This document shows positions 17,745 through 20,393 of a stretch of 34,937 nucleotides of DNA, in pieces. Position numbers and translations under genes: made by a program. The stretch lies in the NCBI GenBank assembly GCA_021811155.1, contig JAJZPO010000025.1:1-34937 (forward strand), in the 5' to 3' direction. Under the pieces are notes generated by a model that worked only from the letters and a program-made list of their open reading frames with translations, had not been told where the DNA came from and did no database searches. The stretch's first letter is position 1, and every line of letters starts with the position of its first letter. Source of the stretch: Bacillota bacterium. Lineage in GTDB: Bacteria; Bacillota; Desulfitobacteriia; Desulfitobacteriales; JAJXUE01.

Positions 17745-17787
17745 GCAAAAAAAATAGGCTTAAAACCGGAGAACAGGTTTTAAGCCT
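17745..17787 (-). terminator. Terminator of the rhodanese operon
   Basis: AGGCTTAAAACC (17756-17767) and GGTTTTAAGCCT (17776-17787) form a 12-base perfect stem. Read on the minus strand it is followed by a run of eight T residues, so it ends minus-strand transcription. On the plus strand it may also act weakly behind the hypothetical gene. Confidence 0.88.
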
Positions 17788-17833: not shown

Positions 17834-18220
17834 CTACTTGGTCACCGGGCCCTGCCAGGCTTCCATCCCGCCGGCCACGCTGGACACTTTCTTATAGCCC
17901 TTTTCCAACAGGAACTGGGCTGCCTGCTGGCTGGTGCTGCCCGAGTAGCAAACCAAAACGATTTTGTCATCCGGTTTTAGCTGCTGGTATTTCTCTTGAA
18001 AGCTGGAAAAAGGGAGATTGATTGCCCCGGCTATGTGGCCGCGCTGGTAGGTGTCTGCCTCCCTGATATCCACCAGGGTAAACTTTTCACTGGAATTGAG
18101 CATCTTCTGCAAGTCTGAAGCCTTAACGGTCTCAAAGCTGTAGCTGCTCATACAGCCGCTGAGTGCCAGTGCCAGGACCAGGAGCACAAAGAATAAAGAA
18201 ACTCGGCGTATGTTTTTCAT
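17834..18220 (-). CDS. Rhodanese-like lipoprotein
   Basis: This 128-residue protein is a single-domain rhodanese (sulfurtransferase) anchored outside the membrane. It has a lipoprotein signal: positive start KNIRR, hydrophobic stretch, and lipobox LSGC with C23. The rhodanese domain follows, with VDIREADTYQRGHIAGAINLPF near 50-71 and the active-site loop CYSGSTS with catalytic C91. Such proteins carry sulfane sulfur or related chalcogens. The ATG at 18220 has GGGAGGG upstream. It lies 11 bases behind the candidate selenoprotein and ends at a strong terminator, so the two form one operon. Together they suggest extracytoplasmic handling of sulfur, selenium or a thiophilic metal. Confidence 0.92.
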   Translation of the reverse strand: MKNIRRVSLFFVLLVLALALSGCMSSYSFETVKASDLQKMLNSSEKFTLVDIREADTYQRGHIAGAINLPFSSFQEKYQQLKPDDKIVLVCYSGSTSQQAAQFLLEKGYKKVSSVAGGMEAWQGPVTK

Positions 18221-18231
18221 AAGTCCCTCCC

Positions 18232-18606
18232 CTAGATGATAGCTCTGATTTTGAGAACATAAATAATTACCCCTATGTTCACCACGGTGGAAAACCAAAG
18301 CAGGACTTTTTGGAACTTGCTTACCCTATGAGCTTTGTACTGGGCGTAGTGGGCATAGCCGAGAACTAGAACACTGCCTGCCAGAATGTAGTACTGGTAT
18401 TTGGCGAAGAATGCCAGGGCTGAAATGGTCGAAGCCGCAGACAACCCGAGTCCGCTCAAACTGAGCGGCACCAACAGCAAAGGAGCTGTTCAACTGGCGC
18501 AGGCAAAGGTGGAGGCTAGCAACGACAGGACATTGGCAATTTTGTTCTTTTTGGCGCTGCGTTCTGACAGAACCTGTTTGGCGCTGAACTCCAAAGGTTG
18601 CTTCAT
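18232..18606 (-). CDS. Candidate selenoprotein, MerT-like membrane protein
   Basis: An ATG at 18606 with a GGGGGG site opens a frame interrupted by one TGA at 18490-18492 (codon 39) and otherwise open to 18232. Read through, it gives a 124-residue protein with three hydrophobic helices (about 23-55, 65-85 and 100-120). The TGA sits in FACAS-U-TAPLLLVPLSLSG. This resembles the first helix of mercuric transporter MerT, where a cysteine pair binds the metal; the second helix segment YYILAGSVLVLGYAHY also resembles MerT. A strong hairpin with a GUU loop starts 21 bases after the TGA, as in bacterial SECIS elements. Gene callers would report only the part after the TGA (about residues 43-124). A pseudogene or sequencing error is the alternative. 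Confidence 0.7.
18452..18492 (-). promoter_or_regulatory. Candidate bacterial SECIS after TGA codon
   Basis: On the minus strand the TGA (18492-18490) is followed by 21 bases and then CCGCTCA-GTT-TGAGCGG (18468-18452), a seven-base perfect stem. The apical loop begins with GU and lies 28 bases after the TGA, within the usual 16-37 base range. This is what SelB needs to insert selenocysteine. An additional weaker CAGC/GCTG pairing lies between the TGA and this stem. Confidence 0.6.
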
Positions 18607-18647: not shown

Positions 18648-18676
18648 AGTTTACTATAAGGGTTTGTCCGCGTCAA
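18648..18676 (-). promoter_or_regulatory. Promoter of selenoprotein-rhodanese operon
   Basis: On the minus strand TTGACG (18676-18671) and TAAACT (18653-18648) are 17 bases apart. The -10 region overlaps an imperfect palindrome (roughly TAACTAA and TAGTTTA, 18638-18654), a possible operator. The 343 bases between the two divergent genes otherwise contain only the promoter on the other strand. Confidence 0.5.
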
Positions 18677-20199: not shown

Positions 20200-20267
20200 A
20201 TCTTTTGCCTGGGTTTGAAAAGTAGTCCAATCTGGTGTAGAATTAAGGCTGAAAAATTGAACACGCT

Positions 20268-20371
20268 AATCTCCGAGCCCTAAGGTCTAAACCATTGCGG
20301 CATGACCTTCCGGCCGGTCCGGGTACAGGAGGAAACGACTGTGCCTCCACGTAATTTTTGGAAAGGAGATT
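20268..20371 (+). ncRNA. Probable molybdenum cofactor riboswitch
   Basis: The closing stem is AATCTCC (20268-20274) with GGAGATT (20365-20371). Inside lie AAGGTC/GACCTT (20282-20287 with 20304-20309) and GGAGG/CCTCC (20328-20332 with 20344-20348). The TCTCCGAGCC start and the GGAAAGGAG end resemble the Moco RNA motif. It lies upstream of molybdopterin genes, as this riboswitch class does. A covariance-model search was not possible here. Confidence 0.65.
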
Positions 20372-20393
20372 GACAGCAGCGGGCAGTATCTGC

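Follow-up and report, generated by a model that had tools for sequence, protein, structure and literature searches.

A predicted selenoprotein distantly related to MerT is encoded next to a rhodanese-domain lipoprotein in a Bacillota genome

The window analyzed here, a stretch of 34,937 nucleotides from a Bacillota draft genome, carries on its minus strand a gene for a distant homologue of the membrane protein MerT, in which the UGA at codon 39 is almost certainly decoded as selenocysteine, as judged from comparative sequence analysis. A gene for a rhodanese-domain lipoprotein lies directly downstream. In our reading, to which we assign a probability of roughly 0.6, the product would be a rhodanese-coupled membrane selenoprotein for the uptake or relay of a soft metal or a chalcogen.

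The selenoprotein gene runs from position 18606 to 18232 as a single frame of 124 codons, the sole interruption being the TGA at codon 39. Translated with TGA as U, the product begins with MKQPLEF, contains ACASUTAP and ends with LKIRAII. A sequence-only reading of this DNA had described an ATG-to-stop frame with one TGA and had given no strand; the frame is present on the minus strand, and a plus-strand reading of 18232-18606 was rejected because that strand has no open frame. The good ribosome site claimed for the gene corresponds to the purine-rich AGGGGGGG that precedes the ATG. Likewise, the expectation that gene callers would miss the N-terminus agrees with the standard ORF list, which contains only 18232-18480, a TTG-started frame of 82 amino acids that covers the C-terminal two thirds; with its genes truncated in this manner, a MerT-like selenoprotein family is easily overlooked. 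Comparison with the closest relative yielded dN/dS values of 0.19/0.91 upstream and 0.03/0.38 downstream of the TGA, which indicates that both sides are evolving as coding sequence. The features of the gene are as follows.

18235..18606, minus strand: coding sequence of the predicted MerT-like selenoprotein, 124 aa, Sec39 in the motif C36-A-S-U39-T-A-P (translation with TGA as U and 30-member alignment)
18232-18234, minus strand: stop codon TAG of the selenoprotein gene
18490..18492, minus strand: in-frame TGA read as selenocysteine (Sec39, CASUTAP; shared by 31 of the 34 homologues of the phylum, with the Cys homologues carrying their Cys in this column)
18452..18468, minus strand: SECIS-like hairpin, stem 18468-18462 / 18458-18452, loop GUU 18461-18459 (covariation in 30 distinct sequences; within the limits of the published model)

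To assess the conservation of the TGA, 398 genomes of the phylum were searched with a family profile. This search yielded 34 homologues, 31 of which contain one in-frame TGA; the others have Cys in the same column. The Pfam MerT model gave 26 matches in the phylum (24 with one TGA), and nearly all detectable MerT relatives of the phylum thus carry the codon. Matches in genomes G015 and G050 were discarded as apparently unrelated (a larger membrane protein and a broken frame). Sec occupies one and the same column in each of 30 aligned family members, the column that in MerT holds the second cysteine of its CC pair, which bears out the earlier proposal that the TGA occupies the site of an expected cysteine. 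A genome of the same genus (G001, locus L009) encodes a protein that is 85% identical and has the TGA in place, and two genomes of the same order encode proteins of 33-36% identity in which the TGA is kept within the motif CLAU. Cysteine forms are found in the phylum as HICCWGP (G286-C49), HLCCIAS (G138) and SFCCLGP (G441), and in the same order as ASICCVG (G040). The plasmid-borne MerT proteins of mer operons from Exiguobacterium and Cytobacillus read CCLGP, their second Cys falling in the Sec column. Plasmid records searched with the window protein produced no match, a more typical relative used as query retrieved seven Bacilli records, and the viral contigs searched contained no relatives. 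Genome G286 harbours two Sec-type genes and one Cys-Cys gene of the MerT-like type (L030, L054 and L117) and so offers a natural Sec/Cys comparison.

The hairpin downstream of the TGA that the sequence-only reading had described is CCGCTCA-GTT-TGAGCGG, with a stem of 7 bp and a loop that starts with GU and lies 28 nt from the TGA (21 nt to the stem). The isolated hairpin has a folding energy of -9.8 kcal/mol, and its GUU loop, 7 bp, 28 nt and -9.8 kcal/mol fall within the bacterial SECIS limits as excerpted from PMC13188914. The 63-nt region taken alone has only a slight folding advantage over shuffled versions (z = -1.78; 6 of 200 shuffles as good); this one sequence is insufficient to prove a SECIS element, and it is the comparison of homologues that provides the proof at the level of sequence. 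Over the 57 nt 3' of the TGA the 30 distinct sequences can be aligned gap-free, and the register of the hairpin is constant throughout. The 7-bp stem is paired in 91% of cells, compared with 33-52% after a shift of the partner strand by 1-3 columns; none of 500 shuffles equalled the covariation score and the count of cells changed on both sides. The strongest covarying pair, columns 30-36, is represented by CG 12, AU 6, GC 4 and UA 3 times. Because these columns are, in most sequences, the synonymous third positions of two Leu codons, the covariation is not attributable to the protein. The loop opens with G in 30/30 sequences and, with flanks included, 28 of the 30 family members reach -7.5 kcal/mol. 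An Rfam scan of the window listed no SECIS family among its matches; the SECIS_1 model (RF00031) gave no hit and was equally silent in 14/14 control genomes, so that its silence is uninformative.

The genome from which the window derives (3.2 Mb, 149 contigs, 99.5% complete) possesses all of selA, selB, selC and selD, the genes to which the sequence-only reading had pointed. The tRNA-Sec gene (selC) adjoins the gene for a SelB of 632 aa, SelA scores 596 bits, and selD (L026, G000:C22:17879-18808, minus strand) codes for a selenoprotein in its own right, its TGA lying in SKAGUGCK. SelB was found above its cut-off in all 27 TGA-bearing genomes among the 37 genomes checked; the three genomes in which it was not are G441, whose homologue is of the Cys form, and G087 and G088, neither of which gave a match in the family search.

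The relationship to MerT was evaluated with curated family models. The NCBIfam model MerT RC607 (NF033560) matches 30/30 family members, the window protein with an E-value of 7e-12 and a score of 45.6 (cut-off 130). PF02411 is matched at E<=0.01 by 28/30 members, several of them above its cut-off; the window protein scores 13.5 bits against a cut-off of 32.9 bits and gives no significant single-sequence match. Since it falls below the curated cut-offs while its relatives match, the window protein is, on its sequence, best described as a distant homologue of MerT and not as a certified MerT. The vicinal Cys pair in helix 1 of MerT is missing: in C-A-S-U, the second Cys is replaced by Sec and the first by Ser. 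An AlphaFold model built with 30 sequences consists of helices at low confidence (pLDDT 66) and at that confidence had no structural match in the PDB; a sequence search of the PDB returned only a weak match to MerF (E=0.027). The data support the initial reading of the gene as one for a MerT-like selenoprotein, with a hairpin of the bacterial SECIS type. The accompanying remark that Sec in such a transporter would be unusual holds to a lesser degree. As excerpted, PMC13188914 lists a 'Putative mercuric transport protein, PF02411, C/SxxU, ABB16073.1', credited to Zhang and Gladyshev 2007, and PMC9312934 lists the same putative mercuric transport selenoprotein family; a 'putative mercuric transport protein' was also counted in an ocean survey (PMC2398784). 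The CASU of the window protein conforms to C/SxxU, an assignment made by motif and family description. The window gene is therefore not a new kind of selenoprotein; it is a divergent member of a listed family.

The surroundings of the gene contain the following additional features.

17834..18220, minus strand: gene for a rhodanese-domain lipoprotein, lipobox LSGC, active-site loop CYSGSTS (PF00581, E=5e-24)
18648..18676, minus strand: promoter-like site TTGACG-17-TAAACT upstream of the selenoprotein gene (pattern match only)
17756..17787, minus strand: intrinsic-terminator-like hairpin, a 12 bp stem followed by ATTTTTTTTG (pattern match)

The promoter-like site, the selenoprotein gene, the rhodanese gene and the strong terminator-like hairpin probably constitute a two-gene unit. 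The window locus is no mer operon, as MerP, MerR and MerA are not adjacent, and the best MerA-like protein of the genome remains below the cut-off (357.8 versus 454.45 bits). Elsewhere in the window, on the plus strand, lie a group II intron domain (1046-1302; RF02005, 107 bits) and a molybdenum/tungsten cofactor riboswitch (20259-20384; RF01055, 64 bits).

Two motif types can be distinguished in the family. The CxxU type, with Cys three residues before Sec, comprises 16 distinct genes including that of the window; the CU type, with Cys immediately before Sec and thus the direct equivalent of the MerT CC, comprises 14. A rhodanese-domain gene is found directly downstream on the same strand in 16/16 CxxU genes versus 0/14 CU genes. 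The rhodaneses that accompany CxxU genes have a hydrophobic N-terminus and, in most cases, a lipobox. Four genomes (G131, G160, G169 and G203) hold both types, and in these the rhodanese is beside the CxxU copy only. On the tree the motif label requires two changes; the CU pair L041/L044, nested in a CxxU group, is likewise without rhodanese. The Fisher value of 7e-9 for the rhodanese link overstates the evidence because the agreement comes from only two independent pairs, a number that does not permit a significance test; with just two independent evolutionary changes, shared ancestry could partly explain the link. At the few CU loci that were read by eye, the genes nearby include ones for ArsR-like or MerR-like regulators and for CopZ-like proteins. 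At one CU locus, L047, the MerT gene is followed by a lipoprotein-like, HMA-like (MerP-like) frame with an in-frame TGA (SYTUQSNCA), such that MerT-like and MerP-like selenoproteins may be encoded in tandem. Literature on MerT, rhodanese and mercury, covered at the level of titles and abstracts, with the 2007 description and the Haft papers lying outside that scope, contained no such pair. The CxxU/CU split, with a rhodanese always directly behind the CxxU branch, thus looks new, and its strictness provides a testable lead on the role of the membrane selenoprotein.

In the mechanism that we favour, Sec insertion at UGA39, which the comparative evidence shows, is directed by the hairpin 21 nt past the codon and by the SelA, SelB, SelC and SelD of the genome. 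Sec39, standing in for the second cysteine of MerT's CC motif, and C36, three residues earlier in the first transmembrane helix, would form a soft-ligand or redox centre through which a thiophilic cargo would cross the membrane. MerT chemistry involves soft, thiol-loving cargo, and by analogy transport or relay of such cargo via Sec39/C36 is suggested. The likely cargo would be either a soft metal ion, for example Hg(II), or a sulfane-sulfur/selenium species that the exported rhodanese lipoprotein of the same operon would present, with a hypothetical order of transfer in which the rhodanese persulfide hands over to C36/U39 and these to an acceptor in the cytoplasm. The adjacency of the rhodanese hints at sulfur, selenium or soft-metal handling. 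Mercury or another metal as substrate is putative and not established, the partner being a rhodanese lipoprotein and not MerP or MerA. Tentatively, and with less than even odds, the CxxU branch might be half of a two-component chalcogen system and not a mercury transporter; in that version the rhodanese lipoprotein would give sulfane sulfur or selenium to the membrane selenol, followed by import or reduction.

Several alternatives were considered. It is rather unlikely, albeit worth serious consideration, that the protein is an Hg(II) uptake protein with a selenol in place of a thiol, the rhodanese being an accessory whose sulfide or persulfide would serve to precipitate or sequester the mercury. 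The descent from MerT is clear and includes the MerT of Bacilli plasmid mer operons, and the review PMC13188914, as excerpted, ties Sec-containing transporters to resistance against mercury and arsenic; however, the CxxU genes adjoin a rhodanese instead of mer genes, and both the absence of MerP, MerR and MerA beside the gene and the sub-threshold MerA-like protein argue against it. We consider it unlikely that the CxxU protein is no transporter and works in the membrane as a selenol-thiol redox relay, reducing the rhodanese persulfide or another extramembrane substrate. The family is MerT-like, DsbD/CcdA families are not among the matches, and no thioredoxin gene adjoins the pair within the window, although CxxU is frequent in thiol-oxidoreductase selenoproteins and TsoB fuses a rhodanese to a DsbD-like membrane part, both according to the list excerpted from PMC13188914. 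That the TGA is a true stop, leaving a pseudogene or a short N-terminal peptide followed by a separately started C-terminal protein, is highly improbable: the TTG-started 82-aa ORF would fit such an arrangement, but the TGA resides in one conserved column with Cys in relatives, purifying selection acts on both sides of it, and the hairpin covaries. A sequencing error, or a genome-wide recoding of TGA as some other amino acid, for which nothing speaks except the draft state of the 149-contig assembly, is extremely improbable because the same TGA recurs in independently assembled genomes, the single-contig G129 and G136 included, and because the genome has tRNA-Sec and Sec genes.

The rhodanese-coupled membrane selenoprotein that we favour can be compared with four known systems. 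With the listed 'putative mercuric transport protein' it has in common the MerT family, a single Sec and the CxxU motif; the window protein is more divergent, and the rhodanese pairing is not mentioned in the excerpted entries. With the MerT of mer operons (NF033560; plasmids NZ_CP075898 and NZ_CP107028) it shares length, layout, the position of C/U-x-x-P-L and descent, whereas mer-operon MerT has Cys-Cys and the neighbours MerR, MerP and MerA, and the window protein has Cys-x-x-Sec. The MerT/CopZ fusion-like heavy metal transport selenoprotein (NF045683) contains a MerT-like part, and 19/30 family members match its model at E<=1e-4; it is, however, a longer fusion, against which the window protein scores 15.6 (cut-off 375). 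TsoB (NF045694), the rhodanese/DsbD fusion-like selenoprotein, likewise couples a rhodanese to a membrane selenoprotein, but does so by fusion to a different membrane domain, whereas in the window the two are encoded by separate genes and the rhodanese carries Cys and not Sec.
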